From NCBI GenBank assembly GCA_030272155.1, contig CP126194.1, positions 7,361,001 through 7,425,000 of the forward strand: DNA of 64,000 bases. Reading direction: 5' to 3'. Below, in pieces: positions 1 through 54,677 of the stretch. The first letter of the stretch is position 1. Each line of letters starts with the position of its first letter. Under the pieces are notes generated by a model, which saw nothing but the letters and a program-made list of their open reading frames with translations, ran no database searches and was not told where the DNA came from. The DNA comes from Tetradesmus obliquus. Lineage: Eukaryota; Chlorophyta; Chlorophyceae; Sphaeropleales; Scenedesmaceae. A program made the position numbers and the translations under genes.

Positions 1-805
1 GTTCTATGGCTTTTGGCTTGCGAGCACATTAGTGCTCTGGACACTTCGGGTAAGAAGACCGCTAAAAAGATGCCCGCTAAAAAGAGTTTTGGCACGGTTT
101 TGGCAGCCTCTGTGCATGTGTGTTGTGCCAGCACGGAGGAGCGTGCATGTGAGCATATGCTAGGTGTTGACCATGCCTGAGTCTGCTGCTGCCAATGCTC
201 TATATATCTGCCCCCTCTCTTGCTGGCTGCTTCTGTTGCAATGATGTGTCCTTGCACCATACAGGAGTACTATGAGGAGGAAGCCCGCTATGCCATCTCA
301 GCCCCCAGCAGCGGCACCAGCCCAGCAGCAGCAGCTGCGAGCAGCAAGCCAGACAGCAGCAGCAGCAGCAGCAGCAGCAGTGCGCCGTACGTGTCAGGCT
401 TTGGCCCTGGTGCTGCTGCAGCTGCTGCAGCTGCAGGTGCAGGTGCGGCATCTGCCGCAACTGCAGCAGCCGCCACCAGCGACAGCAGCAGCAGCAATCA
501 ACAGGAGCAGCAAGAGGACGAGCCGCCTCGGGGTCCTGTTGTAGAGGCAGATGAAGTTGTACCGCCTGAGGGCAGCAGTACATTTGGCAGTACAACAGGC
601 AGTACAACAGGCAGTACATCAGTCACCAGGCAGTACAGCAGTGAGCAGGAGCGGCAGGCGCGCTGGGATGCGTTCCGGCGCAGCAAGTTCTTCAGGGTTG
701 TGATCAAGGACAAGCGCACCGGCGTGGTCAAGCTGGAGACGCGCATCCCTGCTGGCTTCATTGGGGGCATGACCGCGCTCATCCCACAGGTGCGTGGCAT
801 AGTGT

Positions 806-860
<55 letters not shown>

Positions 861-1461
861 CTTCATTGGGTGCGTGACCGCGCTCATCCCACTGGTGCGC
901 TTGAGATGTCACCCCATAGGTATATCAAGAGGATCAGTTTTGTCATTGGGTTGCGTTTTTGAGACGCGCATCCCTGCTGGCTTCGTTGGGGCATGACACT
1001 CATCCCACAGGTGTGTGGTTGAGGTCCAGGCGAAAGTTGCATGGCGAGGTACATCTACGTGAAGAATTTGTGTGCTGCTGTTGAAATCCCAGGACTGTGC
1101 TGCTGTGGTGATGCTGCAGGTGCAGGTGCATGCGTATGGATATGCAAGCGAGTGCGCTGCTGGCAGAGATGGCCAACCTTGCGCGCCTTCACTGTGTCTG
1201 CCGCTGCCGCTGCCGCTGCAGGTTGCCGGTGTGAAGTTTGAGGAGATGGTGGAGGCGCCTGTTCCCGTCAGTTCCCGTCACACAGTGCTGCCACCACCCT
1301 CACTGCTGCTGCTCTTTCTGTTGCTGCTGCTGCCGCTGCAGGTTGCCGGCGTGAACTTTGAGGAGATGGTGGAGGCAGCCATGGGTGAGAGCCTGGACCT
1401 GAGCAAGCCGCTGCTGGACTATGAGAGCGGCAACGACGTCATCACAGTGTTCCTGGAGTGA
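1..1461 (+). CDS. Protein with SHOCT-like C-terminal domain (5' partial)
   Basis: The gene enters from the left edge. Likely exons are 2-49 (tentative, donor GTAAGA at 50), 265-789 and 1342-1461; the last two join in phase 0. Exon 265-789 begins after an ACAG acceptor and encodes an acidic start (EYYEEEARYAIS), a Ser/Ala-rich low-complexity linker, then a conserved-looking basic segment (FRVVIKDKRTGVVKLETRIP). The final exon adds FEEMVEAAMGESLDL and ends in NDVITVFLE. The order 'R-I-P-x-G...LIP...F/LEEMVEA...V-x-V-F/I-x-E' resembles the SHOCT-like C-terminal domain known from bacterial hypothetical proteins. That resemblance is from memory and unsearched, and the function is unknown. The intron 790-1341 holds echoes of both flanking exon edges, so splice choice is uncertain. 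Confidence 0.6.
734..1381 (+). repeat. Exon-edge echoes around intron 790-1341
   Basis: The end of exon 265-789 (GAGACGCGCATCCCTGCTGG to CTCATCCCACAG) is partly repeated at 857-900 and again at 961-1011, the latter followed by a GTGTGT donor-like sequence. The start of exon 1342 (GTTGCCGGCGTGAACTTTG) has a copy at 1222 preceded by the same CCGCTGCAG acceptor. Copies diverge by substitutions and small deletions; the 961 copy has lost several bases. Confidence 0.8.
808..860 (+). repeat. GCT triplet microsatellite
   Basis: About 17 uninterrupted GCT units lie in the intron just after the donor at 790. It also separates the real exon end from its first echo. Confidence 0.9.
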
Positions 1462-2298
1462 TGAGCGCAGCAGCAGCAGCAGCAGCAGCAGCAGCCATTG
1501 TGTCTACCTGCGGTGATAATGGACCACCACCTCGACCACCACCACCAATAGCAGCAGCAAGGGCAGTGTCGTCACCACCTGGATTTCATCACAGTCTGGC
1601 TCAGATGATGGCAGACAAGCAGGCAGTGCAGGAAACATACTGAGCAGCAAGGCATCTACTGGCACACAGGCCTGAGGAGGGTGCAGGTTGCTGCTGCCGG
1701 CTGCTGCAGTGGTTGTGTCACAGCTGCTGGCACACGTACTGGTGCGGGTGCAGATTACTCACACACTAGTGTGGGGCAATACGGCTTGCGCATGTGCACA
1801 GCTGTCAGGGGAGCCAGTGCTCCAGGCAGTGCCGTGACTAGCCGTTTGAGGTGATGCAGTGGTGTGCAGTCTGGCTGCTAGGTCTGCCGGTGTCTGTCTT
1901 GCTTTCAGGTGGCGATACTGGATTTCCCGCAATGCTTGCAAGCACACGCACAGTTGAGTAGTGCTCCCCGCTGTCACTTCCTGTGGGGCTTCGGGCGGTA
2001 TCAAGTGGTTCATGTGGTAACATGATGATGGGTCATCATGAAGCTTTGAGTCCACCGAACAGTCACACCCCTGCCAGAACTGCGTGCAACAATTTTAAGT
2101 GACAAACAGCTGTCACGATGTACAGCATCGTACAAAAGCACGCTGGAAACTGGCGCTGTTTGTAAAGCTGGTCAACATACACAGCCCTTCCATGCTTGTT
2201 GACATCAGAGGTTGAACATCAGGCATTGCAGAATGTCACATTCTGATGATCTGCAACGCTTTCTGATCACGATGCCGGTGTTTGTCTGGGGCACAAAA
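1462..2298. other. Convergent intergenic region
   Basis: This lies between the stop of the SHOCT-like gene and the stop of the minus-strand gene at 2299. It starts with a short CAG run (1468-1494). A TGTAA, the usual chlorophyte polyadenylation word, occurs at 2161-2165 but far from either stop. No coding signal is seen. Confidence 0.5.
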
Positions 2299-12879: not shown

Positions 12880-15800
12880 TCACTTGCAGCAGCACCAGGA
12901 GCTTTGTCTGCAGGCCAGTTGTTCTGTGCAACAGTAGTGATGTGGCTGGCTCATTAAACGAGTGGGAGACGTGGTCAGCAGCAGCAGCAGCAGCAGCACC
13001 AGCAGCAGCAGCCGTTGAATCAGCAGCTCAACATCCTGCACAGCATCTTGGGAGCCGTGGCGCATTGCTGACGCCCATTGCCCGCAGCAAGATGCAGTAA
13101 AAGCATTGCACTGTGTGCAGCATGCGCCTGACTTTTGTGATGTCGCGCCTAATCATGCCTACTGGCCATGACTCTCTATCTTGTCCCATGACCGTGCTCC
13201 TGCTGCTGCTGCTGCTGCTGCTGCCAGGTGCATGTGCCTGAGGGCCTCACCGCGCTGGATTTGGACCTCATCAAGCTCACTGCGCAGTTCGTGGCACGCA
13301 ACGGCGCGGCATTCCTGACTGGTGAGGAACCCCCGGTTGCAGCTGCGTGACTTGTTGTGAGCTTGGCTGCGTGCCTGCTTGTGTTTATGCATTTGCATCT
13401 CTGCGTGCCCTGTTTGATTGCCGTCCAAAATGTTTGCACTTTCAGCTGCACAACTGTAACTGCGCAAGTATGCCATCGGGCTCTCTCTGGACTTTCCAGT
13501 GCGTCACCTATGTGACCTTTGGTGCATGGTGACGTTGTTGCGTTGCTGCAGGCCTGACGCAACGCGAGGGCAGCAACCCCGCCTTCTACTTCCTCAAGCC
13601 CACGCACTCCATGTTTGGCTTCTTCACCAGCCTCGCGGACGCCTACAGCGCGGTGCTCATGCCCGACAAGGCGCTCAAGCCGCGCCTGGCACAGGACGCC
13701 GGCGACAGGTGGGGGCCAAATGCATATGCTGCAACATCTTGTTGACTATTGCTGCTCATGCCTGACACGGCGATGAAGCCTGGCGCAGGACGCCAGCGAG
13801 CTCATGTGTGACACCATGCTGTGACACTTCCACTTACACCTTAGGATGCTGTGCTGCGCTGCGCTGCCGTAGGTCTGCTAGCTGGACACTGCTATTCAGC
13901 GGCATTTACTGCACAACCTATGGTGCTGTGCCGCTGTACACAGCCGCAGGTCTGCCATGCTGGAGCGCTGACTGCGCGGGTTCAAGACCGCGGGCCATCT
14001 CTATGTGCACTGACCAACCCACACACAACCTCCGCTCGTCGACAGCAATGCAACAACATGGATGCTTGGCTGTGCTGTGTCGATGGGATGCCAGGTCTGC
14101 CATGCAGGTCCTTGCTTGACACTCTTGCAACATCTGCGGCCAACGTCGCATGCTATGCTGCTGCCTGCCTCCGCAGGTCTGCCATGCTGGAGCGCTGCCT
14201 GAAGCGGCTGGAGTGGGACCGCGCACGAGCACGAGAGGCGCAGGAGCTGGAGGATGAGGCGGAGAGGGAGCGGCAGGCCATGCAGCAGGTGCGCTTGGGT
14301 GGCAGTGGAGGGGTGTGATGATGGGCTTGTTTGAGGCTGGGTTTGCCTTCATCATCTTCAGCAGCAGCGGCGGCAGCAGCAGCAGCAGCAGCGGTGTGTG
14401 GCAGGAGGCGCAGGAGCTGGAGGACAAGGCTGAGCGGGAGGCTGAGCGGGAGCCATGCAGCCGGTGGGCGGATGAGGGGAAGGGTCAGGCAGCAGCAGCA
14501 GCAGCAGCAGGAGCAGCAGCAGTGTGGGACGGGCTAATGGGGCGGAGTTCGGGTGTGCTCACTCTGGTGGACCAGCACCAGCATCAGTGAACAAGCCATC
14601 TCCTGAGTTCAGCCGCAGCACGTACCCTCTCCCCCCAAGGACAGATACCTTCCTTCGCGCGTCTCTTTGCGCTCTGTGCTCATTGCCTGCTTCTTGTTGT
14701 GGTGCACACCATCTCTGCTGCCCGTGCACCCCAGCTTGACGTCTACGGCGTTCCTCAAGCGCTGTGCTGTCTGCCTCCGTCCTACCTTGCTGCGCCCGCA
14801 GATTGACTGGCACGACTTCGTCATCGTGGAGACCATCGACTTCTACGAGGACGAAGACGAGGAGCTGCCACCCCCCATGAGCCTCAAGGAGCTGATTGCA
14901 TTCAACAAGCAGCAGGCGCAGCAGGGCGGCGGCGCGGCAGCAGCAGCGGCAGCGGCAGCAACGGAGGAGGAAGATGCGGCGATGGAAGAAGAGGATGCTG
15001 AGCAGGTGGGGGTGGATGGCAGCACTGCTGTAGCGGTTGTGGGTCAGCATCATGCGTGAAGTTGTAGACTACCACCCTGCAACTTTGCGCTGTGCACAGG
15101 AGGATGTGCTGGCTGTGCACCATGCATAGATGCCTTACCTACGTATCTGCTGCTTGCTAGCTGACTACAGCATTCGTGTCAGTAACAAGATTATTCAACA
15201 CGCGTCTGCCTGCAGGCCAACGGCGGTGTTGGGCCATGGACGATGAGGAGCGGGCGCTGCTGCATGCTGTACTTGCTGCTTGCGTTAGAACACGTGTTGG
15301 CCAGATAGATCGATATCAACCACCAACTGCCATATCTGCCTGCAGGCCAACGGCGGTGTCGGGGCCATGGACGATGAGGAGCGGGCGCTGCTGCATGCTG
15401 CACTTTCTGCTTGCCACTAAACACGTGTTGGCCAGATTGATCAATTTCAAGCACAAACGGTCGCATCTGCCTGCAGGCCAACGGCGGTGTCGGGGCCATG
15501 GACGATGAGGAGCGGGCGCTGCTGCATGCTGCACTTTCTGCTTGCCATTGAACACGTGTTGGCCAGATTGATCAATTTCAAGCACAAACGGTCGCATCTG
15601 CCTGCAGGCCAACGGCGGTGTTGGAGCCATGGACGATGAGGAGCGGGCGCTGCTGCATGCTGCACTTTCTGCTTGCCACTGAACACGTGTTGGCCAGATT
15701 GATCAATTTCAAGCACAAACGGTCGCATCTGCCTGCAGGCCAACGGCGGTGTTGGAGCCATGGACGATGAGGAGCGGGCGCTGCTGCATGCTGCACTTTC

Positions 15801-17978
15801 TGCTTGCTTTCCAACATGTGTTGGCCAGATACATCAATCTTAAGCACAAACGGTCATATCTGCCTGCAGGCCAACGGCGGTGTCGGGGCCATGGACGATG
15901 AGGAGCGGGCGCTGCTGCATACTTGCTGCTTGCTTTCAAACATGTGTTGGCCAGATAAATCAAGTTCAAGCACAAACTGTCGTTACTGCCTGCAGGCCAA
16001 CGGCGGTGTTGGGGCCATGGATGATGAGGAGCGGGCGCTGCTGGCGCAGGCTGCAGGCGCAGCAGGCGGCGCAGCAGCAGCAGCAGCTGGGTTGCCTGCG
16101 GCGCCGCCGCCGCTGCCGCCGCCTATTACGGGGGTGGATGCTGCTCCGGAGCTGCCAGATGAGGTGGGCATTGGATGCGGATTATGTTCAGTGCTTGCCA
16201 CAGAGTGCTGGGTGTGGTAACTGTGCATTGCTGGGATGTTGCCGTGGTGCATGCCGCATCAGGTGTCACAGTTCCGCATGCTGAACTCATGCTCGTCCCT
16301 GTACGCGGCTGAAGCCCGGCACTTTGCTGCTGACCACCCTTTGACCAAATGTTGACCATGTAATGACCAGGACATGGAAGACGACATGGACATGGAGGAT
16401 GAGGGGCCCATCAAGGTGGTCACTCTTTCTTCTGCGACTCCTCACTTTCCTCTTCCTCTTCCTTTTCAAATATCGTTATTTGCAGGACATGGAGGATGCC
16501 ATGGACATGGAGGATGAGGGCCCCGTCAAAGGTGGCACTCTTTTTGTGCTGCTTCTCTCTCTCTCTCACTCGTGTGCGCGGCTTAAACTCCTCACTCTTT
16601 TGCAGGACATGGAGGACGAGGGCCCTCTTTTGCGCTGGTCACTCTTCGTCTGCTGCTTCTCACTCTTCCGCATGCATTCTTCCTGTCCATCTCACTCTTT
16701 TGCAGGACATGGAGGACGACATGGACATGGATATGGAGGATGAGGGCCCCATCAAGGTGGTCTGTACACGGTCACTCTTTTTCTGCTGCTGCTCACCCTC
16801 ACTCTTGTACATTTTTAAACCTCACTATTTTGCAGGACATGGAGGACGACATGGACATGGAGGATGAGGGCCCCATCAAGGTGGTCTGTACATTGTCAGT
16901 CTTTTTCTGCTGCTGCTCACTCTCACTCTTGTGCGTCTTTGAATCCTCACTCTTTGCAGGACACGGAGGATGACATGGACATGGACATGGAGGATGAGGG
17001 CCCCATCAAGGTGGTCTGTACATTGTCATTCTTATTCTGCAGCTGCTCACTCTCACTCTTGCGCGTCTTTGAATCCTCACTCTTTGCAGGACATGGAGGA
17101 CGACATGGACATGGACATGGAGGATGAGGGCCCCATCAAGGTGGTCAAGAACTACAAGCGCCCCGCAGCGCCCCGCACCGCACTCACCGCGGGCGGTGAG
17201 GCATACGACCCCGCCAAGTTTGCGGTGTCGCCCATTACTGGGGAGCTCATCGCACACGCTGACATGGCGGAGCACATGCGCATCAGCCTGCTGGACCCAC
17301 GGTGAGCTGGCATGGTGGTTCTGTATGTGCAGGCATGCGTGCGTGTGTGCGCAGCGAGTTCGGTATGCGCATGTGCGATGGCCTGTTGGCTGATTGCGCT
17401 GCAGGGCTGGCTTTCCAAGTGCCTATGTGTATGCGCTAAGCGTTCTGGGCACGCGGCGAGCTGCTGGCTTCCAAGGACACTGCCCAGGCTGACATCCAAC
17501 TAGCACTGTTGTTTCTGATTGTGAGAACATGTCTTGAATGCTGTCCTGCAGGTGGAAGGAGCACATGGAGGCCATGCTGTCCAAGATCAAGGACACCACC
17601 AAAGTTGAGCACAAAGTAACACTGCCCTTGTCATGACAAACCAACACTATTCTTGTCATAACAAACTAACACTGTTCTTGTCGGAATTGGCTGCAGGTGG
17701 AAGGAGCAGAAGGAGGCGATGCTGTCCAAGATCAAGGACACCACCAAGGCCGATGATGACGAGATCACGCGCAACCTGCTGGGGCTGGCCAAGACGCGCC
17801 CAGACATCTTCGGTGAGCGGCACTGCTGCTGCTGCTGCTGCTGGTTTAATGGCTGCTGCTGTTGGTGTGCTGTCGTGCTTCTCCTGTACTGATATCCTGT
17901 ACTGAAATGCACTTGGTGTGGGGTTGGCCAGGCTGCGCTCCAACGATGCTTCCAGTCACATCATATTGCTCACACACG

Positions 17979-18012: not shown

Positions 18013-20260
18013 GCCGCAGGCTCCACCGAGCAGGAGCTGGCGGAGGTGGTCACTGCAGCCGTCAAGGAGAAGCAGACCAGCGGCCAGGGCCGCGCAGTGG
18101 CCTGGGACGGCCAGACCACAGGCGGCGCACACCTGCGCACACAGCTGCAGGAGATCAAAGACAACCGGCGCGAGTACACCGGCAGCAGCAGCACACCAGG
18201 CAGCTCAAACCTGCCGCAGGCCGGGCCTGCGTCCGGCCAGCAGCAGCGGCAGCAGAAGCCGCAGCAGCTGCCGCCGCCGCCGGTGCTGCCGCCGCCGCCG
18301 ATGCAGCCGCCACGGCCGCCGGCGCAGCAGCAGCAGCAGCAGCGCGGGCCGCTGCCGCCGCCGCCGATGGGTGGCTTGATGCGGCCGCCGCCACCTATGG
18401 GTGGAATGGGTGGCATGGGGGGCCCTCCTTTACCCGGCCCTCCTCCCCCTGGCATGATGGGAGGTGGGCCCCCTGGCATGATGCGGCCGCCTATGCCCGG
18501 CCCCCCGCCGCCAATGGGTATGGGCATGATGGATCGGGGCCCGCCACCGCCCGGCATGCGGCCGCCGCCGCCGATGCCGCCGGGCATGATGGGCGGCGGC
18601 GGTGGGCCGATGGGTGGTGGTGGTGGGCTGCCGCCGCCGCATGGTATGGGGCCGCCGGGAGGAGCGGGCAGCGGCAGCAGCAGGCCAGGTGAGCGGCAGT
18701 GCGGGCAGGTATACGAGGTGTGTAAACAAAAATTATTGTGAGCTGTAGATCCAAACGTGATGGTGGCATGATGCGGCACCTATGCATGGCCCACCACTGC
18801 CAGGTGGCATGTGGCTGTATCGGTATATGCCTGGCATGGTGGGGAAGGGGTGGTGGGCCGATGGGTGGCGGCGGTGGGCTGCCGCCGCCGCCTGGGATGG
18901 GGCCGCCGGGAGGCAGCGGCAGCAGCAGGCCAGGTGAGGGGCGGTGCTGGCAGGTGTACGAGGTGTGTAAAAAATCACTGTGAGCTGTAGATCCAAACGT
19001 GATGGTGGCATGATGCGGCACCTATGCATGGCCCACCACTGCCATGTGGCATGTGGCTGTATCGGTAGATGCCTGGCATGGTGGGGAAGGGGTGGTGGGC
19101 TCATGGGTGCTCATGGGTGGTGGTGGTGGGCTGCCGCCGCCGCCGCATGGCATGGGGCCGCCGGGAGGTGGCGGCAGCGGCAGCAGCAGGCCAGGTGAGG
19201 GGCGGGTAGGAGAGTGTGTTTCTGTTTGATTCTTGAAAGCGTGATTGCCGCACCTCAGTTACAACTGGCTGAGCTGTGTGTTGCTGGGCTGTGCAGCAGC
19301 TAGTTCACTGTGCCACTGCAGCCTTATCGAGCGCCATTGGTGACGTTGCACGCTTTGCTGCTGCTGCTGCTGCTGCTGCAGGTGGCCCGATGGATGATGA
19401 GGCTGCAGCCAAGCGCCCGCGGCTGGACTTCGTGCTCACGCCAGAGGACGAGTTCCTGGCGGCACACGGGGACGGGCCCAGCAAGGTAATCAAGCGCGGC
19501 AGGCAGTGTAATAGGCTGAGCATGATGGTGTGTATGTGTCTGTTGGTGTTCAGGGGTGGGGACGAGTTTCTGGCAGCACACGGGGACGGGCCCAGCAAGG
19601 TGAGCCATGGGCAGTGGCGGGCTTGGCGGCATCAGGTTGTAGTGCGGTGTGTCTTTGTGGGTGTGTGGGACGACTCTCTGGCGGCACTTGGCGACAGGCC
19701 CAGCATGGCGGGTCAGGTTGTGGCTCCATTTTCAACTTGTGCATGCAGTTCCCCGCCTGCTCCGCGCCGCTGCCTGATCCTGGTGCTGTCATGCCGCGCT
19801 CTCTCTGCTGCTGCTGCTGCTACGGCGGCGGCGGCTGCTGCTGCTGCTGCTGCTGCTGCGGCTGAATCGCGTTTTCCACTCTGCCTCACAATGCTCCTGC
19901 TTGCAATCAACCGCTGCAGGTGCAAGGTGCCCTGCTGTCATGCTGCTATCACTGACCTGCTTTAACTCTGCTGTTACTCTGCCACCACCACCACAGGTGC
20001 GTGTGCAGTGCCCGGAGGTGCCTGGCAGCGACAAGCTGCTGGGTCAGCTGCTGGAGGTGGAGGTGGCCTCACTGCGGGACAGCGTGGGGCACTTGAAATC
20101 TCGCCTGGAGGGCGTCACTGGGGTGGGCGTGAACAAGCAGAAGCTGAACCGCGAGGGCGTAGGGTTCTTGAGGGATGAGATGAGCCTGGCGCATTACAAC
20201 GTGAGCCCGGATGTGGTGCTGGTGCTGGGCAGCAAGGAGCGCGGCGGCAAGAAGAAGTAA
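11013..20260 (+). CDS. SF3A1: Splicing factor 3A subunit 1 (SF3A1/Prp21)
   Basis: This is a core U2 snRNP protein needed for prespliceosome assembly. Thirteen exons close with consistent phases: 11013-11220, 12123-12223, 12633-12830, 13228-13321, 13552-13708, 14177-14288, 14802-15005, 15996-16163, 17090-17301, 17697-17812, 18020-18688, 19382-19485, 19997-20260 (868 aa). Visible domains in order: SURP1 (IIDKTAQFVAKNG...NNAKFNFL...YHAYYRMR); SURP2 (KLTAQFVARNG...NPAFYFLKP); the PRP21-type region (IDWHDFVIVETIDFYEDE); an acidic linker; KVVKNYKRP with FAVSPITGELI; TWDG-like AVAWDGQT; a Gly/Pro-rich stretch; and a C-terminal ubiquitin-like domain (LKSRLEGVTGVGVNKQKL) ending in Lys. The size fits the family. 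Introns carry unusually many copies of adjoining exon edges, so alternative isoforms are plausible. Confidence 0.95.
13747..13800 (+). repeat. Echo of SF3A1 exon 5 3' end
   Basis: The segment CTCATGCCTGACACGGCGAT to GACGCCAGCGAG copies the last ~50 nt of exon 5 (CTCATGCCCGACAAGGCGCT to GACGCCGGCGAC). It is diverged and lacks a clean donor. Confidence 0.75.
13866..14106 (+). repeat. Echoes of SF3A1 exon 6 acceptor edge
   Basis: The true acceptor CCGCAG and start of exon 6 (GTCTGCCATGCTGGAGCGCT, from 14177) recur without change at 13944-13969. Partial copies lie at about 13866 (GTAGGTCTGCTAGCTGG) and 14091 (CCAGGTCTGCCATGCAGG). Each is a potential decoy 3' splice site. Confidence 0.85.
14403..14463 (+). 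repeat. Echo of SF3A1 exon 6 3' end
   Basis: GAGGCGCAGGAGCTGGAGGA to GCCATGCAGC copies the end of exon 6 within the following intron, with an internal duplication of the GAGGCTGAGCGG unit. Confidence 0.8.
15216..16043 (+). repeat. Seven-copy acceptor-side array of SF3A1 exon 8
   Basis: The junction TGCCTGCAG / GCCAACGGCGGTGT occurs with exon-like starts at 15216, 15346, 15477, 15608, 15739, 15870 and 15996. Spacings are 130, 131, 131, 131, 131 and 126 bp. Each copy carries 48 nt of exon (ANGGVGAMDDEERALL) and then runs into intron sequence with a stop about eight codons later. Only the last, 15996-16163, continues as the full exon and has a donor. The first copy has lost one G. Copies 3-5 are almost identical. 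Confidence 0.95.
16371..17134 (+). repeat. Seven-copy array of SF3A1 acidic exon 9
   Basis: Copies start at 16371, 16486, 16606, 16706, 16836, 16960 and 17090, mostly after TTTGCAG. Most encode DMEDDMDMEDEGPIK followed by a GTGGTC that can act as donor. In the last copy GTGGTC is read as Val-Val and continues into KNYKRP (true exon 17090-17301). Copy lengths to AAG such as 45 and 51 nt are multiples of three and phase 0. Copy 3 (16606) is degenerate. Confidence 0.95.
17552..17606 (+). repeat. Echo of SF3A1 exon 10 5' edge
   Basis: CTGCAG followed by GTGGAAGGAGCACATGGAGG encodes WKEHMEAMLSKIKDTTK, matching the true exon 10 start at 17697 (WKEQKEAMLSKIKDTTK). The spacing is 145 bp and no donor follows in frame. 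Confidence 0.85.
18689..19196 (+). repeat. Donor-side echoes of SF3A1 exon 11
   Basis: The exon 11 end (GGGCTGCCGCCGCCG ... AGCAGCAGGCCAG, then GTGAG) ends at 18688 and recurs ending at 18933 and 19194, steps of 245 and 261 bp. The units also share intron sequence such as AGCTGTAGATCCAAACGTGA at about 18741 and 18983. All copies keep a good GTGAG donor, so alternative 5' splice sites are possible. Confidence 0.9.
19552..19712 (+). repeat. Donor-side echoes of SF3A1 exon 12
   Basis: GACGAGTTTCTGGCAGCACA to GGGCCCAGCAAG ends at 19599 with a GTGAGC donor, 114 bp after the true end at 19485. A more decayed copy lies at about 19670-19710 (GCGACAGGCCCAGCATGG). Confidence 0.85.
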
Positions 20261-28626: not shown

Positions 28627-28629
28627 GCC

Positions 28630-28811
28630 TCAGGCCCCTTTGCAGGCCATGGCCCAGAAGTCCACCTACAGGTGAGCAGTTGCCTCAACAAACCGCGCCA
28701 CTGCCGCTGCTAGCAAGCTCCGCCAGAACCCGACACATCAACTGGCTGCCAGAAGGCATATGCCATGCAGCCCAATGACACTCAACGCGCTGGCCTGCTG
28801 CACCCTTCTTC

Positions 28812-28848
<37 letters not shown>

Positions 28849-28935
28849 AACAAGCAGCAGTCACCCTCTATAGCCTGCTAGCGCAGTGCCTCAGGCCTCG
28901 TTGTATGCCATGCCCCAGACGTCCACCTCCAGGTC
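28630..28935 (-). repeat. Two extra copies of the TENA_E terminal exon edge
   Basis: On the minus strand, copies of the last exon end (VDFWGMAYNEA, then TGA) occur with stops at 28891-28893 (VDVWGMAYNEA) and 28630-28632 (VDFWAMACKGA), downstream of the proximal stop at 29056-29058. All three keep the stop in frame. They could serve as alternative gene ends or are non-functional echoes. Confidence 0.85.
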
Positions 28936-29055
28936 TGCACCTGCCAGGCCAGCCCACATTTTAAGCACAGCAACAGCACAGTAACAAATTTCACTGCTGC
29001 TGCTGCTGCTGCTGCTGCTGAACCAGCCAGCAACTTCAGGCTCAAATGTACCACC

Positions 29056-30424: not shown

Positions 30425-30462
<38 letters not shown>

Positions 30463-30878
30463 GGCTTTGATGGCATATGGCTCGCTGTGCAGCCCCTGCA
30501 TGAACTGGCGGTACGCCACGCACGCTGGCTGCATGCCTGCATGCGGCAGCAGCAGCAGCAGCAACAACAGCAAACCATCCAAGCGAGGAAACAATGCAGC
30601 CCCTGCATGAACTGGCGGTACGCCACGCACGCCGGCTGCATGCCTGCGCACGGCAGCAACAGCAGCAGCAGCAGCAGCAACAACAGCAAACCATTCAGGC
30701 GAGGAAACAATGCAGCCCCTGCATGAACTGGCGGTACGCCACGCACGCTGGCTGCATGCCTGCATGCGGCAGCAGCAGCAGCAGCAACAACAGCAAACCA
30801 TCCAAGCGAGGAAACAATGCAGCCCCTGCATGAACTGGCGGTACGCCACGCACGCCGGCTGCATGCCTGCGCACGGCA

Positions 30879-30921
<43 letters not shown>

Positions 30922-36172: not shown

Positions 36173-36417
36173 AGTTTGCGCCTGTGGCAGCTGTGCTAGC
36201 AGGCATCATAGCGAATGGTGTGGTGGACGCTGTGTCGGGGTCTGGCGCACCGCTGAACAACATGCTATACTACTCATTGCTGGATGGCAGGGCGATTGTA
36301 GAGACGCAGCCAACGGGGGTTGGTGCTGGTGGTGCTGCGCAGCCAGGCAAGGCAGCAGCTGGCTCGCAGCAGCAGCAGCAGCAGCAGCAGCAGGCTGAAG
36401 AGGTCGTGATTGATTGA
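36173..36417 (+). repeat. Tandem duplicate of the end of SAE1 exon 6
   Basis: Directly after the stop, TTTGCGCCTGTGGCAGCTGT onward repeats 35934-36172 and again ends in a Gln run, EEVVID and a stop (TGA, 36415-36417). It is in a different frame from the gene, so read-through does not make it; it is either in the 3' UTR or a potential alternative terminal exon. Confidence 0.92.
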
Positions 36418-41400: not shown

Positions 41401-41603
41401 GCTCAGACATGGAGACAGGCATGCAGCAGAGAATGAGTGAGGCGTCACGCAGCAGCAACCCAGGGCGGAGCACGTTCAATGCACAGAAGCCGTCGTTGCA
41501 CAAGTAGGACCACACAGGCGGCATGCGCTCCTGCTCAGAACCTGTCAGCCGACGTCACGTCACCACAGTAACACGACGCGTTATGTCAGCAAGATCACGA
41601 ACC

Positions 41604-41671
<68 letters not shown>

Positions 41672-44600
41672 CAACTCACCAAGCTGGCTGGTCTTCATGC
41701 CATTTGGGCCGCTTGCTATGCTGCTGCTCAGGCTCAATAGCGCCCCCATTGTCACCGTATTGCCAAGCATTGCCACAGACAGCACGCCAGCATCCCAGCT
41801 GGGATAAGCAGTGCCAAAAAGCCCAGCCTGAGGGCCATCATTGCCTGCAGCAGCAGCCGCCAGCACGCCGGCTTTTGTTGCAGCAGCGAGTGCGGCTGCA
41901 TCTTCTGGGCTGGGGTTTAGGCAGTACTGGCTGTAGCTGAGGTTTAGGACGTCCATGCCGTCCTGGGTGGCCCGGGTGATGCAGTTGCTGATGGCTGTGC
42001 GGACGGCTTCATATGTTGCCGTGTTGGCCTGGCAGGAGTAGGAGAAAACATGCAGCAGGCACGCACGTCAGCTACAAGCAGCCATCTGCAAGGTGCCGCT
42101 ACCAAGCTCTGCTGCTGTGTATGCAGCACACGTCAGACAGCTTGTATGGCTGCATATGTTGCCGTGTTGGCCTAGAGGGCATGCACAGCAAGCGAAGAAT
42201 GAAGGACAGCAAACAAGGGCGTCAACGTGTATATTGGCAGCAGGCAGGTGCAAATAGCAGGCCACGCTGTGTTGCATGCAGCGGCTGTCACACTGAATGT
42301 ATGCTCTAGCAGCCAAAGCAAATGTGTGTGTGAACACACACACACGCCAGTGTCATGGCCAACAGCAGCGCTTGGTGTTGCTGTGCAGCATGCAAGATGG
42401 CAGAGGCAGCAGCTGCTTGCCAAGCAAGGCAACAGCGGCACAGGCACAACAGAGACACATGCTATGCTGGTTCTACTCACATAGAATCCCGGTATGACCT
42501 TGTAATCCCCTATGAACGCTGCAGTGCAGACGCGCAGGAACAGCACACAGTAGAACCAACATGGTCAGCACGTGAGGCACTAGCAACTTCCGTATGCAGC
42601 AGCTGGCTGTTGCATGCTGCAGTACTATCAGCAGTACACGCTGTGCAGTGCTTGCTGCCCAACTGGCGTGCAAGCCTCTCCACAGCAACTGCAGCTATGC
42701 AGCAGCAGCTGATCTGGCCAGCGCACCAAGGCCGTACAGCCTCGCAGCAGCAGCTGAGCTGGGCTGCGCATCAAGGCAGGGCCTCACCTCTGTATGCCAC
42801 ACCTCGCTGGTAGTCAAAGGGTGTGTTGTTGGCATCCATCAGCTTGTAAGGAAACGACCCAGCAGCAATGCCTGCGGAGCACCCGCAAAGAGCAGCTCAC
42901 ATTCACGTCCTCTTCCCTGCTCACAAGCCAACTGCATGATGCTGAACTAGCAGCAGCCGAGCAAAAACGTCAGCTGCATGTGCAAGTCAGACATACTAGT
43001 GCAGCAGCAGCTGCTGCATGACAGGCAGCAGCTGCTGGGCACACCAGCAACGCTCTCCAGCAACTTGCAGCAGCAGAGCAAGAAGATCACGAGTTGCATG
43101 TGCAAATCAGACATGCTTGTGCAGCAGCGGTGATAAAAGACAGCAGCTTGCAACGCTCACCAGCCACGTGGGTGCCATGTGCATCACCACTGCCCAGCAC
43201 CACCTGCAAAAGCCAGCAGCAGCAGCAGCAGCAGCAGTGGTGCACAACACCATCAGCAAGAGGAGCACAGTGCGCATCGTCGAACAGTAGCAGCAGTTGC
43301 AAGGGAACCTGATGCTGTGCATGATGCTGTTCAGGCACCGTAACAATGCAGCACACGTTTTGGCATGGCAAAGGAGAGCCTGGTCACGGGTGCTCAATGC
43401 ACTTGTGCAGTCCTGGACAGCTAGGCACGCCACACCGCAGCAACCTCGCAGCAATGCACAACTGCCAGTGCCCCGCATGGTGCTCTGCACTGCTGCAGCG
43501 CCTTCCAGCTGCAAGTAAGCCTGCATTACTTTTCTACGCCATGCGCCACGTTGTCAAATCCATCGTGCTGCTGTGCTGCATCAAGCGTATCAATCCACAG
43601 CAAGCTCACTGTGTCGCCTGTCTTGGAGAAGGGGTTGTACGAGGCCACCACCCTGCAGCTGCTGCTGCTGCTGCTGCTGCTGCTGGGGCTGGCCAGTGTG
43701 CTGCAGCGCCCCCAGTTTGCGCTGCGCCGCCAGTCCACGCCATCGTCCAGGATGGCGATACGCATGCCTTGGCCGGCCAAGCCCAGCTCGTTCTGCACAT
43801 AGTTGACCTGGGGAAGCAGAGTGTAAGGGGTGGTGTTCGGGCAGGACATACACAGGCATCAGCGCCGCTGGTTACGCCATCGTCCAGGATGGCAATACGC
43901 ATGCCTTGGCCGGCCAAGCCCAATTCATCTTGCACATAGTTGACCTGGCAAGTCATGGGGTGACAGAGGTGGAAGGGAGTGTCATGTTTGGGGTGGTGTT
44001 CTGGGGTTACATCCTGGTGGCGTGTGAGGAAGGCGTGTGTGCTGATCGCACTCAACATGCTAGACGTGCTGAGCATGCAAGGAAAGCATGCAGAAGGGCA
44101 GTAACAGACTGAATCACGTGACAACCATGTAATCCACGTGCCCTGCTATTAGTACTACTACTATAATGTTGGACTTGCACGCTTGTTCCTGCAGACCTGG
44201 TGCCAGCTGGCCTTCTGCTTCACAGCACTGCTGCATTGCGCAGCATCACTGCTGGCAGGTGACGCTGGCCTGGCAACACTGCGTGGTTACTGAGTGTGCT
44301 GCACCCTGCTGGTCACATGTATGAGAACTGACAATATGTTCTTGTTGTCTACACTGACGAACAAAAAGCTTGTTGTTCACAGGCTCTGCTGCCGTTGCAG
44401 CCAAAACAGTTGTGACCAACCAATCCCTCCCCACACACTAGTGCCCTAGCCAGGCAGCTGCTCTGCAAGCCTGCTACAGCCACGCTGCACTGCAATCACC
44501 TGCGTAAAATCAAGGCCGTCTGCTCCGATGACAGCTGGTCGCACGTCAGACAGGAAACAGCTAGCCTGCAGGAGACAGGGAAGCAGGCGGGAAGAAGAGG

Positions 44601-45905: not shown

Positions 45906-48900
45906 ATGCCGGAGTTGCATCGGCCTCTCGGGTGCAGCAAGTGCCGATACAGCAAGGGCGGATGCAGCAGGTGCAGGAACCCAGCCTTCCAGCCTCGGCA
46001 GCCGCGTTCACATGCTGAACCTCATCCCGCAACAGCTGAGCAGGCCACAGCAGCAGGATACCAGCAGCAGCAGCAGCAGAAGCAGCGCCAAGCCAGGCAA
46101 TGTAAGGCCACACGCTTGAAGCATCCAGCTACCAGGCTTGCAGATGCAGATTCTTCAGTAAACAGTCAGCTCCAGTCCTTGCAGGAATGCAGCGTGGCGC
46201 CTCAAAGCATGGCAGTTGCTGATGCTGGTGCTGCACAGTTGACAGCACGCAACACACAGCACACCAGCAGTTGTAGCCCTGCATGCGTGCATTCACCACA
46301 GCAGCATCAACTGCAGTCAACACAGCCAGTGCAGCAGAAATCACACAGGTTTCCCAGCAGGGTCAGCAGCCTGGCAAAGAGGCTGCGCACAGCTTTGCGG
46401 GCGCCACCTCCTGCTGATGCAGCAGCAGCAGCAGTGGCAGCAGACAGTGCTGCAGCAGCAGCACCAATGACAGCAGACGCAGCAACAGGCAGTGCAGACA
46501 CGGCAGCAGCAGGGACAGCAGACGCAGCTGCAGGCCTACCAGCAGCAACTAGTCAAGGTACTGATGCCCCAGCTGCTGTGGCTGGCAGCAGTGCAGCGGA
46601 AGCAGCAGCAGCAGAGGTCGCAGCAGCAGATGCCGCAGCAGTTGTGGCAGATGATGCCTTGACTGAAGCTGAAGCGCCCGCAGTAACTGTGCCAGCACAG
46701 TGCAGCGATGCTGCAGTGGCGCCAGGCATGCAAGTAGATGGCAGCGACAGCCCACCTGCAGCTGACACAGCTGCTGTGGCTGAGGGCAGCAGTCCTGCTG
46801 CTGCTGCTGCTGCTACTGAGGGCAGCAGTCCTGCTGCTGCTGCCTTCAGCCAGCTGCTGCAGCAGCGCATCAAGCAGCAGCTGCAGCAGGGCAGGGTCAG
46901 GCTGCCTAGCACAGCAGCAGCAGCAGCTGCAGGCAGAAGGTCACAGGCAGCTGCAGCTGCAGCTGCTGCTGCTGGCACTGCTGATAGCCTGCAGGGCATA
47001 CAGCAGGATGCGGCTAACACACAGCCCAGTCAGCAGCAGCAGCAGCAGCAGACGCCAAAGCGGAAACAGCAGGCTCAGCAACCTGCTGCGAAGAGGCAGC
47101 GGCAGCAACCTCATGCAGCCACCCAGCAGCAGCAGCAGCAGCAGCAGCAGCAAGATGAGGCTGCTGCTGCACCTTCCACCCCCTCCTCCTCCATCTCCCA
47201 TGGCAGCGCCTCACTCCTACTGCCAGCCTCCCCACCACCTTCACTCAGCCCGAGCAGCAAAACCCCACGCAGCGCCAAAACCGCCACGCCCCGTAAACCC
47301 TACAGGGCACCAAAACCCTACACGCACCTGGCGCTTCCGGGGGATGATCCCCGGCTGCCGCTGCCTGGCTGGTCCCCCCCTGTGAGCCCCTATGGCTTGC
47401 TGGAAGAGGAGCTGTGGCAGCAGCCTTGGCGGCTGCTGCTAGGCTGTATGCTGCTCAACAAGACCACAAGCAAGCAGGTGGGTGTGGACATTTGCGGCAG
47501 GCTTGTATGTGTTGTTGACTTGTGTGTGAATGCACTGCGGCCGCAGACGCGGCAGGTTGTGCTACGCTGTGTGTGCATGTGCGTGCTTGCTCATATTTGC
47601 GCAAGTGTGCATAGGTGAGCCCGTATAGCCTGCTGGAGGAGGAGCTGTGGCGGCAGCCCTGGCGGCTGCTGTTGAGCACCCACCTGCTCAACAAAACAAC
47701 CAGCAAGCAGGTGGGTTGCAGGGGAATTCTGCATGCTTGTGCGGTTTTTTGGGTGACAGTGCTGTGGAATTGGAAAGGCTGCTGCTGGGCTGCATGCTCC
47801 TCAACAAGACCACCAGCAAGCAGGTGGGTGCTGGAGACTTCTTCTTTCGTTCTGCTTGCGCAGGCGTGTTGTGCGCTGTGCGGTGTTGTGTTTTTGCCTG
47901 ACAGCAGCCCTGCAGCGGGAGCCACGCTACGCGTGTGAGGAGGCCCTGCTGCGCAAACTGCTGCAGTCCAACTGCCGGCCAGGTGCTGAGCACATGGCAG
48001 CGGCAAGCTGGCAAGCGTGTTAATGGCGACTATCACACAATTAATTGACTGTTGCTGCTCTTGTGGAACCTGTTGCAGGTGCGGGCTGTGCTGTGGCGGC
48101 TGCTGGAGCTGTGTCCTACCCCCGAGGCTGCTGCTGCCGCTGATGCAGCCGCCATTCGTGCCATCATCACGCCCCTGGGCCTGCACAACAAGCGGGCGAC
48201 AGCGGTGCAGCGGCTGTCACAGGATTTTGTACACAAGCAGGTGCGTGTGGCCTGTGCTGTTGGTTGTGCCATCATGTGTGCACAGCAGGAGCTCGCCTCT
48301 TGACTCCATGCTGCTCGCTGCACATGCGCCAGCACTCGCAGCCTTGCAAGCAAGCGCACTCGCAGCGCCTAGCTCCTGCTTACTAATCTGTGTAGTCGGT
48401 TTTCTGCGAGTTGTGATCTTCCACGCATTAGTCCTCTCTACTGAGCTGTACGGCATTGGCAAGCAGATTCCTGTGGCTTTGCAATGCAACATTTTTACTT
48501 TGCCTTCTGCTTTTGTGTTCTTGTGTTGCTGTGCAGTGGTCCTGCCCCACGGAGCTGTACGGCATAGGCAAGTACGCGGCAGACGCTTACTACATCTTCT
48601 GCAGGTGGGCTGGGCAGGAATGGATGCGTGTATCTGTATTCTCTGCGGTTTGCAGACTGTCAGCTGGCCGTTGCTGCAATGTCTGCCACAAAGGTCGCAC
48701 TCTGCGGGTGCCAGTACAGCTGTCAGTAGCGCAGGCTGCTCAGTCATCGTGACGCTGTGGGGTGTGCACACTATCTGCTGGCCTGTACTGCATGCGCAAC
48801 TCGTTTGTGGCTCTTGCAGCTGTGTGGGTGCACTGCAGGGTCAGGGGACATGTGACAAACATGCCCTTGCAAGCACTTATGCTTGATGTGAACTGCATTT

Positions 48901-49897: not shown

Positions 49898-52185
49898 TGC
49901 TATGCAAACATAAGCGCGTATTAATGCCTGTCAGTAACTTTCCTCTGAGAGCACTCGTGGATGTGAAGCAAAGTGCACCATGTGGCGGATGCCATGAGGA
50001 GCGCCATTACTTGCTGGTGCTGCAGTCTTGCTGTTCTGCAAGCGCAGCGTCCCTGGAACGTCGGTAGGGGACTAGCCGGACGTGAATGATGAACACTCGT
50101 GGTACGATCCAACACGACCATGTATGCTGTGCCCTTGCGTGTTACCTGGCGTGTAGGTTTGCTTCATAGTGGCACCAAACAAGGTACGCTCAATGTGTGA
50201 CAGCAGCAGGAGGTCAATAACTGGCAGCAAGCGTGGGAGGTGATGGCAGCATTGGTCAGCGCATGCAGCCATCAGCTGCAGACAGCACATAATTAAAGCT
50301 GCAGCCTCGCATGCAAAACGTGTCGTCATCAACAATACTGCTTTTTCAGGCCATTCAGTTGTATTATTCAGGACCTCTGCTTTGACAGACAGCACATGCT
50401 CGTAAACGCCAGCTTCATGATTGCCGTGTCAGCACTCTTCCTGTGCAGCACGCCAGAGCAGCAGCTGCACAACTGTGTGAAGGCGTGGCGCTCCCAAGCT
50501 CTACTGTCACATCACAGATGCCAAGTACGCACCAGGCTAGGACGTACATGCGTGCATGCCGTGCCCTGCCTGCCGTTACTCTTGCTGCGCCTGCAGCACC
50601 ACACCTGGTGGGCAGCAGCAATGAAGGAGGCCTTCCCAGCAGCCCTGCTGGTGGCACCGCTGGGCCTGGCGCAGCAGCAGCAGCAGAAGAGGCAGCAGCA
50701 GCAGCGGCTGCCGATTGATGTGCGCATAACGCCGCTGGCAGGGGTGCAAGACATGCCAGGCGCCTGGCCAGCAGCAGTGCTGGACGTGATACCAGTGAGT
50801 TGAAGTGCGGCTGATGGTGACGCAGTGTGGGTTTGCATTTCTTACATCCCTTCTATTTGACAGCTGTGCCTATAACATACTTAACATAGTCGACTGATTC
50901 CTGCATCCAACATCCAGTGCCTGGCAGGCCCAAGTGCACAGCCTGATGCGTCGCATTGGCTCGACAAGCGCTCAAAACACTGAGCTGTACTCCCTCACAG
51001 GAGGAGCCGGCTCTGCAGTACAGTCGCATGCATGCCCCGCTCTCACCTGCATGTTCCTTACGCACATGCTGCATCCATTGCAACTCTCCCTTTCTGGTCT
51101 CAGACCATGTGTTCAACCTGTTGTGGCCCCATGGTGCCAGGACTCACATGTAAGTATCCTCTCATATTGCAACCATGTGCCTGCAGGTGCAAGGCATGCC
51201 GTTCATAGACGAGCTCGCGCTGCACCACAAGCCCAGCTCCACACTCATCCTCACAGACACAGCCTTCAACTTTGACGAAGCGTGCTTGCAAGAGCTGCAG
51301 CCCGGCCTTGCGCTGCGCAGCTACCTGGGATGGGCTGTGCTGCGGCCGTGCTGTGTTACGAAGCCCTTCAGGTGGCTGGTCAAAGATGCAGGTGGGTGCG
51401 GTGATGCGTGTTAAAAGAGCAGAAAGCGGAAGGGCGTTAATTGTGCTTGGCTGCGTGATGTATGTGTGCTGCGCTGTACGACGTCAGTTTCAGAGTGCGT
51501 TGTAGTGAAAAGGTGCGCTGGGGTGGGTGGATGAGTGGCATAGCATGTGTCCAGGCCTGCCGTTGCGCAGCTACCTGGTATGGGCTGTGCTGCGGCGCTG
51601 CTGCGTCACCACGCCCTTCAGGTGGCTGGTCAAACATGCAGGTGGGTGTGGTGCTGGCAGCGGCTGCACAGCAGTCTTGCGTGCCAGCCTCGTGCTGTGT
51701 TATGTGCATAGCAGGTGCAGTTTGCTAGCTGCTTCATGAAGCAACATGGAAAAGTGGCGCAGCAGGTGTGCCAGTGCCGAGCTAGTGGCAAGCACCACTG
51801 CATGTGGCGCCTGACACTAGAAGCCAAACCAACTGCACTGATGGCCAGTTGCGCTGTCTGCTGAAGCCCTGTAATTTCTCTGCTGCTTGCTTCTCCTGCT
51901 GCAGCTGCTGTCAAGGCCAGCTTCGACCAGATGCTGGCCACCTGGGAATTTGACCAAGTCAGCATGGCACACGGCAGCTTCATCAGCAGCGGCGGCAAGC
52001 AGGCTTTCCTGCAAGGCAGTTATGCCTTCATTGATCAGCTCGTCAAAGGCAAGCAGGCAGCAGCAGCAGAGCACGGCAGCACGGGCCTTGCAGGAACGGG
52101 TGCGGCGCTTTTTGTTGCTGCAGCTGTCATATCTACTGCTGTTGGCATAGGGGTGGCAGGCATCCTGCAAGTGCGGCAGCAGTAG
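49591..52185 (+). CDS. DUF4336 (metallo-beta-lactamase-like) protein with C-terminal membrane segment
   Basis: Exons 49591-49809, 50393-50425, 50597-50794, 51187-51391 and 51905-52185 join in phase to 311 aa. Features match the DUF4336 pattern as I recall it: TRMVIAGYPLDKDRIGLVLI with SPLEPTAAVVQWLQ; a 33-nt microexon (HMLVNASFMIA) filling the 'hivaPnaf' strand; HHTWWAAAMKEAFPAALLVA; VQGMPFIDELALHHKPSSTL; ILTDTAFNF; and FDQVSMAHGSFI. The product ends in a hydrophobic helix (ALFVAAAVISTAVGIGVAGI) and a short tail, so it is probably membrane-anchored. Plant relatives include chloroplast proteins, but no transit peptide is obvious here. Its reaction is unknown. The end of exon 4 has an echo in the next intron. 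Confidence 0.78.
49840..49894 (+). repeat. CTG triplet microsatellite
   Basis: About 18 uninterrupted CTG units lie just after the donor of the first exon of the DUF4336-like gene. Confidence 0.92.
51553..51641 (+). repeat. Donor-side echo of DUF4336-like exon 4
   Basis: TTGCGCAGCTACCTGGTATG to GGCTGGTCAAACATGCAG, then GTGGGTG, copies the last ~85 nt of exon 4 (end 51391) 250 bp downstream, donor included. Confidence 0.92.
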
Positions 52186-53290
52186 CAGCAATGGCTTGCA
52201 TGCCTGGCGAGATTATGCTGTTGATGCTGGCTGCAGCTGCTATTTGTTCATGAATAGTGTTTCTAGGACAAACTGGTGCATGTGTGTCCCCTCACCCTTG
52301 AAACTGTTGGTGTTAGTGCTTGCTACCGGCCAAAACAACATGTTCGAGGTGCTGAACAGCTCTGCTTATTGGTTTTGATGCGGTTGCGATTGAGGAGGCA
52401 GTAAGCACGCTCGTCATGATCAAGAGCAGATGCAGCTGTACTGCTCGAGCAGTACACACGTACATGCTCTGGTTGTGTCGCCCCCGTGCTCTGAGAAGCT
52501 TTTATAGTGATATATAGCTTATAGTTCTGCACATATGAACATTACTCTGCACAAATTCGTATACGTCGCTTGGTTACAACAGCTTCCGGCGAAAAGCTGA
52601 CGCAGCCTAACTTTGAAAGCAGGACTGACCCGCACTGCTATGATACACGGTGTACACTCATACGAACAACTTTCACATGATTTTCTTGACAAAGATCTGC
52701 CCTGCAGGCTAAACTGAGTGTATCCTTCTCAGCAGCATTGGACGAGCATAGCCTATGTGAGACATACACGTGAAAGAGCGGTGGTGATGGTTAAAGAGCT
52801 ATGGCTGGTATGTCAAGCTGCTGCCTTATGGTGTCGATGCTGTGCTGCTACCTGACAAGGGCTGCTGCAGGTTCGTGCACACTGTGCTGCAACACTGCTT
52901 GCCAAAATGCAGTGCATCTGACCTACAGGCTGGCATAGATTGTGGACTGTCATCAACTGGGTTCAGCCGACATGACATGGCAATCAAACAAAATCGCAAT
53001 GAACAGCTAAGTGCATATGCTGACTACTGGGTGCATATCCTGACTGGTTGGCTGCAGCAACTGGTTGGCTTTATGGCCACGGACAGTCCTTTGCAAGCTT
53101 TACTACACAGTGCACCGCCTGAGCGGGTGCCAGCCAATTGCCAGCTTGACTCGTTCACGCAATGCCGTCACATTAACCTTGAGTGCGTTGCACGCATAGC
53201 AGATGTGGCTGTCATGTAGCTTTAGGACCCAGCTGTGCCACATGTGGCACTGCCACTGAGCGCTGCTGCTGCTGCTGCTGTATGCTGCAG
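52186..53290. other. Region without a confident gene
   Basis: This is the 3' UTR of the DUF4336-like gene, then AT-richer sequence, then short ORFs at 52842-53219 with no domain. Upstream exons of the PAN-domain gene may be among them but cannot be assigned. Confidence 0.35.
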
Positions 53291-53490
53291 TGCTAATAGC
53301 CTACCCAGGAGCCACCATAATAGGCAACGACATTGACTGCGGCCAGCAGCAGAGCCCTGCATCTTCAGGCAGCTCTGGCTGCAGGGTGTGCTGCAGAGAC
53401 CTGGCAGCGGTTGAGGCAGAGTGCAGGGGACTGCCATCATGTGCGGCCTTTGTGTTTGATGATGCCAGCGGCTGTGCTGAGCTCAAGGTG

Positions 53491-53563
<73 letters not shown>

Positions 53564-54677
53564 CAGCAGCAGCAGCAGGAGCAGCAGCAGCAGCAGCAGC
53601 TGCAGCAGCAGGTGAGAGCAGCAGCAGCAGTGTGCTGAGCTCAAGGTGAGAGCAGCAGCAGTGAAACCAAAATGTTGCTTACAAAGTAAATGTGACGCAG
53701 AAGGCAACAGCAGACAAACTTGCAGCACACGTGCAGTGGTTGGTGGTGCTGCCTCAGGCTGGTGCTGTTGCAAGGTGCAGCGTGCAGTTTGTTACTATGA
53801 GTGAGGTGGTGCTTTACCACACCAGCGCTATGTAACCTGTGTAGCACACAACCTCTCGACCAGTAAGATGGTGCTTTACCACACCAGCACTACATCACCC
53901 TCCTCACAAATGTGTGTTGCTGTGTGTCTGCCACGTCTGCAGAGTGCTGCACATCCCCGCTTCCTTTCCTGCAGCGGCAGGGGCTCCCGCAGGTGCAGGC
54001 TGCTGTCGCTGCAGGACCACACCAGGTGAACTTGCGCTTGGCCATGTACAAGAACGTATTAGACATCCTCCAAGTCCTGAGGACGGCGGTGGATGCGTAA
54101 CTGTGCATGTGTGCTGCAACAACAATGTATTATTATCATTGAGTGATGTTGTGTCGCATCATGGAGTTTTCAGAGTATTTTAGCATTGAGTGATGTGTGC
54201 CGTGCAGCCCTGCAGGCTGTTCAGCATGCCTTGCAGTGCCGGTGCCGATGTCCAGGGTGATGCGTGGTGGGCAGGGTGCTAGTGACGCCAGGGTGGCAGC
54301 TTTTAGCTCCAAGCTACAGCGGCGCTGTCAAATACCACAGCAGGTTCAGACGTTGCGTTGTTGTGGTGACTTGGGAAGGCACCACCTGCCATGATATTTA
54401 GTAAGGTTGCCCATGAGCACTACGCTGCCATGTTCATGTTGCCATCAGCCTGTTACAATGTCATTTGTGTTGGCTGCTGTGCTGCAGTGATGGTGCCACC
54501 ACGTATGTGCTGCTCAGCCTGAAGAGCGGAAGGCAGCAGCAGCAGCAGCAGCAGCAGGGCATGCCGGGCGATGCAGCAGCAGGTACTGATGTTGCTGTGG
54601 CAGCTGCAGACGCTGGCGGGAGACCAGCAGATGCTGCTACTGCTGCTATCAGTGCTGCAGCAGCATTTGGCAGGTGA
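53291..54677 (+). CDS. PAN/apple-domain protein fragment
   Basis: Exon 53291-53487 follows CTGCAG and encodes GATIIGNDIDCGQQQSP then SGCRVCCRDLAAVEAECRGL and PSCAAFVFDDASGCAELK. The pattern of C...C..C....C...C..F.......C.LK is that of PAN/apple domains, which are common in extracellular algal proteins. A later exon after TGCTGCAG at about 54488 encodes DGATTYVLLSLKSG, a short Gln run and an Ala-rich tail, stop near 54675. The linking exon is not resolved because the phases do not fit directly; 53970-54100 may contain it. 5' exons are not found. It could be partial or a pseudogene. Confidence 0.5.
53493..53645 (+). repeat. CAG run and echo of the PAN exon donor edge
   Basis: Directly after the donor (GTGAGAGCAGCAG...) lies a CAG-rich tract of about 135 bp. 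At 53631-53645 TGTGCTGAGCTCAAG plus GTGAGAGCAGC repeats the exon end and donor. Confidence 0.9.

Follow-up and report, generated by a model that had tools for sequence, protein, structure and literature searches.

Exon-edge echoes, here understood as tandem copies of one edge of an exon together with its splice site that recur in the adjoining intron, are a real and common but patchy feature of the Tetradesmus obliquus genome. They were studied in a 64-kb stretch of contig CP126194.1 (positions 7361001-7425000), which we call the window and whose own numbering is used below, and in 25 further 10-kb loci (L009-L033), giving a sample of 314 kb. The explanation that we favour, at somewhat better than even odds, is that the echoes are leftovers of small tandem duplications which have no preference for exon edges, are tolerated at junctions and lose the similarity of their intron half first.

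The source assembly comprises 104,662,953 bases in 17 contigs, and 20 of the 25 comparison loci were drawn from contigs C1 and C2. Eight subtilase loci (L001-L008, 28 kb) form an extra set that was kept out of all other counts. Arrays were detected with Tandem Repeats Finder (TRF) and self-BLAST, as local direct pairs at distances of 50-500 bp. Self-comparison of the 314 kb yielded 170 such pairs, 58 of these in the window, whereas order-3 Markov surrogates of the same sequences yielded one, so that chance is excluded. The pairs cluster into 94 arrays, of which 33 lie in the window. Alignment of pairs with their flanks (among 35 pairs processed) showed, for many genes, that exon edge and splice site turn up again in the intron next to them, and representative pairs are ~70-100% identical. 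An earlier interpretation of the window from its letters alone (the sequence-only reading) had proposed recurrent tandem duplication of all ages, often across an exon edge, and this holds, with duplications mostly of 80-270 bp. Arrays at the places it indicated, for example 15201-16055, 16368-17146, 17546-17747, 29155-29690, 30342-31045, 31529-32392, 42005-42173 and 47382-47842 were likewise recovered by TRF and self-BLAST.

Exon calls are predictions of a self-written two-strand gene finder trained on the sample sequence; the predicted genes have a median exon of 132 and a median intron of 248, and the SF3A1 gene was recovered. Because echoes would otherwise count as exons, each array was collapsed to one copy, genes were repredicted and the position of the ancestral unit was scored. 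An array could be collapsed in two ways, of which the one with the better score was retained; this choice may favour exons, and the identical rule was applied to implants, that is, neutral tandem duplications placed into real sequence with the whole pipeline rerun. Class counts omit 17 of the 94 arrays, located in L016 and L025 (satellite-like), L033 (long coding-like repeats, two arrays of which had been classed as single-junction and multi-junction) and L023 (intergenic). The 77 analysed arrays divide into 43 single-junction, 10 intronic, 10 exonic, 8 multi-junction and 6 intergenic ones; outside the window the corresponding numbers are 25, 6, 5, 5 and 3. The 33 window arrays comprise 18 single-junction, 3 multi-junction, 4 intronic, 5 exonic and 3 intergenic ones, thus not every window array is a junction copy. 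Donor-side and acceptor-side units both occur, as had been described (15 and 16, respectively, among the 31 partial straddlers). The steps had been put mostly at 95-145 bp and at most about 260 bp; the median is 128 bp (straddling and intronic arrays, up to 300 bp), and the 43 single-junction arrays have steps of 82-496 bp, 41 of them below 270 bp.

Random segments of the same length in predicted genes fall 31.5% on a single junction, 30.2% in introns, 28.6% in exons and 8.1% on multiple junctions. Exonic units are thus rarer than geometry expects (10 of 77 vs 29%). Implants gave equal or nearly equal numbers of single-junction and intronic arrays, with a junction:intron ratio of 113:113 in the first run (1,194 implants, 259 detected) and 301:315 in a larger one (1,923 implants, 688 detected). 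Full-length arrays comprise 13 single-junction, 7 intronic, 7 multi-junction, 3 exonic and 3 intergenic cases, and their ratio of 13:7 is compatible with the 133:101 of implants (p=0.64; n only 20). The proposal that the process is templated at junctions therefore finds no support in this class, which looks like random placement. Steps below 80 bp occur in none of 51 straddling arrays but in 4 of 10 intronic arrays (p=0.0004), the smallest step of a straddler being 82; selection against duplicate splice sites that lie too close together may account for the missing short steps.

Partial echoes, in which the intron half is hardly recognisable, were examined for traces of a tandem origin. A relation between spacer and matching flank at p<0.05 was detected for 12 of 31 of them, against 10 of 146 echo-free introns; anchored extension gave a weaker signal (6 of 31 at p<=0.05). 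Among neutral tandem implants the intron halves are similar at p<0.05 in 32-43%, compared with 35-50% observed. The sharpest partial echo, in L020, has one mismatch in 65 nt and a spacer relation of p=0.025. At least many partial echoes appear to be tandem-born with a degraded intron half, since their intron halves are related more often than those of echo-free introns. Sharp copying of exon edges without intron is rejected as a general rule on account of these related intron halves and of the look-alike neutral implants.

The distribution of straddlers is uneven. They are present in 12 of the 21 analysed 10-kb loci outside the window, at a density of 1.4 per 10 kb (30 in 21 loci) compared with 3.3 per 10 kb (21 in 64 kb) in the window, and counts per locus have a variance/mean of 2.7. 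Besides the window, L027 and L028 are echo-rich, with 7 and 6 straddlers per 10 kb, and other loci are echo-free. None of the eight subtilase loci has a straddler, and the arrays there number just two, one in an intron and one in an exon. The impression that almost every gene carries echoes does not hold across the genome.

A number of arrays in the window belong to three genes, SF3A1, TENA/THI-4 (PF03070) and an HhH-GPD (MBD4-like) gene (PF00730), all identified by Pfam. SF3A1 (plus strand) contains the following features:

13944..14201, plus strand: acceptor-side echo of 31 nt, 96.8% identical, lying 227 bp before the true exon start; runs into a stop codon
14235..14469, plus strand: donor-side echo, step 170
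15201..16055, plus strand: array 1, six acceptor-side echoes and the true exon start, step ~131 (TRF)
16368..17146, plus strand: array 2, whole mini-exons and the true exon start, step ~115-130 (TRF)
17546..17747, plus strand: acceptor-side echo of 57 nt, 94.7%, step 145; the half in the intron is heavily degraded
18474..19205, plus strand: repeats across the end of a proline-rich exon, step ~250 (TRF)
19446..19708, plus strand: donor-side echoes, step 114

In an SF3A1 relative, P0001 (822 aa), every echoed region is present once; P0001 is probably a transcript, because its 822 aa sit on a contig of 2,872 nt. The mini-exons of array 16368 measure 45 or 51 nt, have both splice sites and are in frame in several copies, and the gene finder called these echoes as exons. 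A minisatellite with 25-bp units (17611-17682) adjoins an echo in an SF3A1 intron. The TENA/THI-4 gene and its minus-strand region, followed by the HhH-GPD gene, contain:

28532..29117, minus strand: echoes around a TENA/THI-4 exon, step 173
29155..29690, minus strand: TENA/THI-4, three acceptor-side echoes of decreasing quality, steps ~98-217
29966..30343, minus strand: TENA/THI-4, donor-side copy of 92 nt exon and 17 nt intron, step 269, 91.7%
30342..31045, minus strand: TENA/THI-4, five acceptor-side echoes and the true exon start, steps 107/116 (TRF)
31529..32392, minus strand: exon ending in ...DVTIIG, same region, five donor-side echoes and the true exon end, step ~135 (TRF)
47382..47842, plus strand: HhH-GPD gene, exon end and donor with two donor-side echoes (96 and ~46 nt)
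48425..48572, plus strand: HhH-GPD gene, acceptor-side echo, step 108

In array 30342-31045 two echo types alternate, which makes it a 223-bp higher-order repeat of 107- and 116-bp units.

For the most part the echoes look like dead copies. Over 52 straddling pairs, the mismatch rate is 8.7% for codon positions 1-2 and 15.9% for position 3, a ratio of 1.84 (95% 1.28-2.73); if one copy is dead and its neighbour a live exon, the ratio is expected not to exceed about 2. Gaps in the exon parts are multiples of three in 9 cases and break the frame in 21 of 30, and six stops occur in 838 codons. The step is a multiple of three in 10 of 43 single-junction arrays, and the length of the cassette to the best opposite splice site in 17 of 53, which equals the null of 1/3; the cassettes with the strongest opposite sites are in frame in three of three cases (n=3). 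Of 58 echoes, 50 retain the splice dinucleotides, approximately as expected at that divergence. Coding selection as a general rule is rejected on gaps, frame and cassette length, and the suggested general supply of usable mini-exons finds no support.

Differences among the echoes themselves, with the live exon left out, were counted in six window arrays picked by hand, since an automatic table (variable columns 134/985 in exon and 160/801 in intron parts) mislabelled several and was set aside. The degraded copy e3 of array 16368 was omitted. In array 15201, variable columns number 2/48 in the exon part and 21/83 in the intron part; its echo 1 lacks one base of the exon part, and no good donor was found for its echoes (best score 1.3). 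Arrays 29155 and 47382 look dead, with differences of 7:9:10 and 4:2:4 by codon position. In all six arrays together, third positions account for 23 of 48 differences (p=0.025).

The scheme that we favour would run as follows. Small tandem duplications, mostly of 80-270 bp, would appear anywhere along genes, exon edges not being favoured. Selection would remove the ones inside exons and, seemingly, also junction copies whose step is less than about 80 bp. A unit across one junction would be harmless, because the true exon stays whole and the spare edge with its splice site falls in the intron, where it becomes an echo. Over time the intron half would lose its similarity first and the exon half would remain recognisable, since the live exon is constrained. 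The echo would probably also be re-copied at times from the live exon, by recombination over the still similar exon stretch. The data show the tandem nature of the arrays, the placement of the full-length ones and the largely dead state of the echoes; re-copying and selection on step size are inferred.

Several results weigh against this scheme. Overall, the junction:intron ratio of 43:10 departs from the 113:113 of implants (p=3e-5), and simple decay simulations without a gene-prediction step give ratios of 1.4-1.8, from which 43:10 differs with p ~0.0009-0.008. Partial (decayed) arrays show 30:3, and 17:1 outside the window, against 168:214 in implants (p=7e-8) and 130:184 in another implant run. 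The split between the two classes indicates that whole-unit arrays are placed as random tolerated duplications and that degraded ones survive almost only as exon edges. Whether such duplications are equally common away from junctions, which the sequence-only reading had put forward as a test of its proposal, thus receives a divided answer, with no significant junction bias among full-length arrays and a strong one among decayed arrays. Plain neutral decay as modelled does not yield this excess of decayed exon-edge copies; the exon half stays recognisable longer than expected, and our scheme accounts for the decayed class only in part. In addition, 22 well-supported pairs of at least 85% identity have a codon ratio of 2.52 (1.68-3.65). 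Echoes of arrays 15201, 16368, 30342 and 31529 vary in 12/167 exon columns vs 121/338 intron columns, although the intron parts of the latter three are simple in sequence and array 30342 is hard to align, and their differences are 1:2:9 by codon position (9 of 12 at the third), a pattern not expected of dead copies. The low variation of exon parts and the codon bias would be explained by re-copying from the live exon, as would use as mini-exons in single cases like 16368; we rank re-copying higher.

The junction excess, which outside the window amounts to 25:6 vs the 113:113 of implants (p=0.002), would follow directly if duplication were junction-directed, with microhomology at splice sites or RNA-templated repair making the copies start and end around exon edges. 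The strong bias of the decayed class agrees with this, as does a coverage by local duplications that reaches 0.16/0.14 (donor/acceptor) within 20 nt of the intron ends compared with 0.06-0.09 beyond 140 nt, which is ~1.5-2 fold over intron interiors. We nevertheless consider a directed process unlikely, given that the few full-length arrays have no significant bias and that the intron halves of partial echoes retain the homology traces predicted by whole-unit tandem duplication. Microsatellites are not enriched either (in 16% of units vs 24% of matched random segments, a test biased low because seeding masked such runs), and the CTG or CAG content of units is not raised; CTG runs, from which help had been supposed, therefore do not explain the placement. 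That selection keeps the echoes, at least some of them serving as alternative mini-exons or splice regulators, seems rather unlikely. The third-position bias and low exon-part divergence of the four arrays named above, the in-frame copies of 16368 with both splice sites and the three in-frame strong-site cassettes speak for it, but frame is random over all echoes, most gaps break it, stops are present, arrays 29155 and 47382 lack the bias, and 15201 has both a deletion and a poor donor.

A pure detection effect, in which slippage-prone, low-complexity intron copies fade faster and exon stretches stay visible without any re-copying, would agree with the constraint on the live exon and with the weak intron-half similarity that neutral implants reproduce. 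In the same implants, however, intron-only partials are at least as numerous as junction ones, and full-length arrays inside introns can still be seen at identities as low as 77-82%; intron sequence thus does not fade so quickly, and we regard this account as quite improbable. Assemblies are known to be at risk where near-identical units form arrays, yet most copies here are set apart from each other by numerous substitutions and indels, and they recur in 12 of 21 random loci; with no positive sign found, an assembly artefact is most improbable. One may go further and see exon edges as lasting templates: dead intronic copies would be refreshed again and again from the live, constrained exon, form a genome-wide class that outlives ordinary intronic duplications and keep reserve splice sites, some of which (as in the SF3A1 arrays) would be turning into in-frame mini-exons. 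This extension is possible but doubtful.

Further window arrays are:

736..1018, minus strand: short array next to a predicted exon, step 225 (and 105); by the gene model most of the unit is intron
34673..34941, plus strand: donor-side array, step 97, ~72% identical
35936..36415, plus strand: tandem copy of nearly all of a last exon, step 239, 82%, classed as exonic (TRF)
42005..42173, minus strand: subtilase gene, acceptor-side echo of 26 nt, step 143
43724..43948, minus strand: copy starting at CAG|GTCAAC, step 138, 88.6%, exonic per gene model and acceptor-side by eye
51301..51656, plus strand: donor-side copy of 91 nt exon and 15 nt intron, step 250, 86.8%

The subtilase exon has PF00082 in 41558-42067. 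Of the gene names in the sequence-only reading, this one and those of the three genes above are backed by Pfam, whereas SAE1, DUF4336, PAN and SHOCT were not confirmed; among 10 open reading frame (ORF) stretches searched against Pfam, eight had no match and one only a sub-threshold DUF3619. The duplicated last exon at 35936-36415 possibly belongs to an SAE1-like gene, although the ORF at 35669-36169 has no Pfam match. An open frame of 826 residues (2302-4779, minus strand) matches no Pfam family at E 0.01. Minisatellites with short units lie at 9764-9846 (21 bp) and 35359-35576 (43 bp). In the comparison loci, L016:3714-10000 and L025:1-9981 are AT-richer (GC 0.49 and 0.48) and consist of tandem units of 312 bp and ~336-345 bp, perhaps satellites; L025 has almost no predicted exons. 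L033:1-6039 contains long arrays with 274- and 351-bp steps, which the gene finder read as coding sequence or as repeats of a 111-nt exon.

Whole-exon tandem duplication and mutually exclusive exons form a known class. Array 16368, which duplicates a whole mini-exon, is similar to whole-exon tandem duplication, whereas most units described here hold one exon edge. In the potato RdRp gene, one genomic segment that spans an intron-exon boundary is reported to be duplicated in tandem, and the same account includes an 83-bp tandem duplication inside an intron that left the gene structure unchanged (PMC4974935). The echoes resemble the former in being adjacent direct copies with the unit across one junction (43 of 77 arrays, 13 of them full-length). 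The potato case, as presented there, is a single RNA-supported event whose copy made a new spliced intron and exon; the echoes, in contrast, occur at many loci, usually show no sign of use of the copy and are known from DNA alone. In Chlamydomonas and Volvox, tandem repeats with units of 1-50 bp are reported to be concentrated near intron-exon junctions (PMC3887541). These also lie in green-algal introns, with a density rising toward the intron ends, but that report counts intron positions of such short units, and the units here are longer copies of exon edges. In intron gain of the Rogers type, as described in PMC4974935, an exon segment that contains AGGT is duplicated in tandem. In both cases the splice sites come from a tandem duplication; unlike in that model, the units here span existing junctions in the collapsed gene models, carry an existing splice site and need no new intron. 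A literature search of open-licence PMC papers found no paper on exon-edge echoes; within that search, such numbers of longer units across junctions appear to be a new form of these known duplications and repeats.

Automatic gene models in genomes of this kind will call echoes as exons, which is a warning for annotation. The arrays amount to many natural experiments on duplicated splice sites, bearing on which of them are tolerated, at what minimal spacing, and whether spares are recruited. Should the whole genome show the same surplus of exon-edge remnants, either a junction bias of small duplications or re-copying from exon to intron would be demonstrated.

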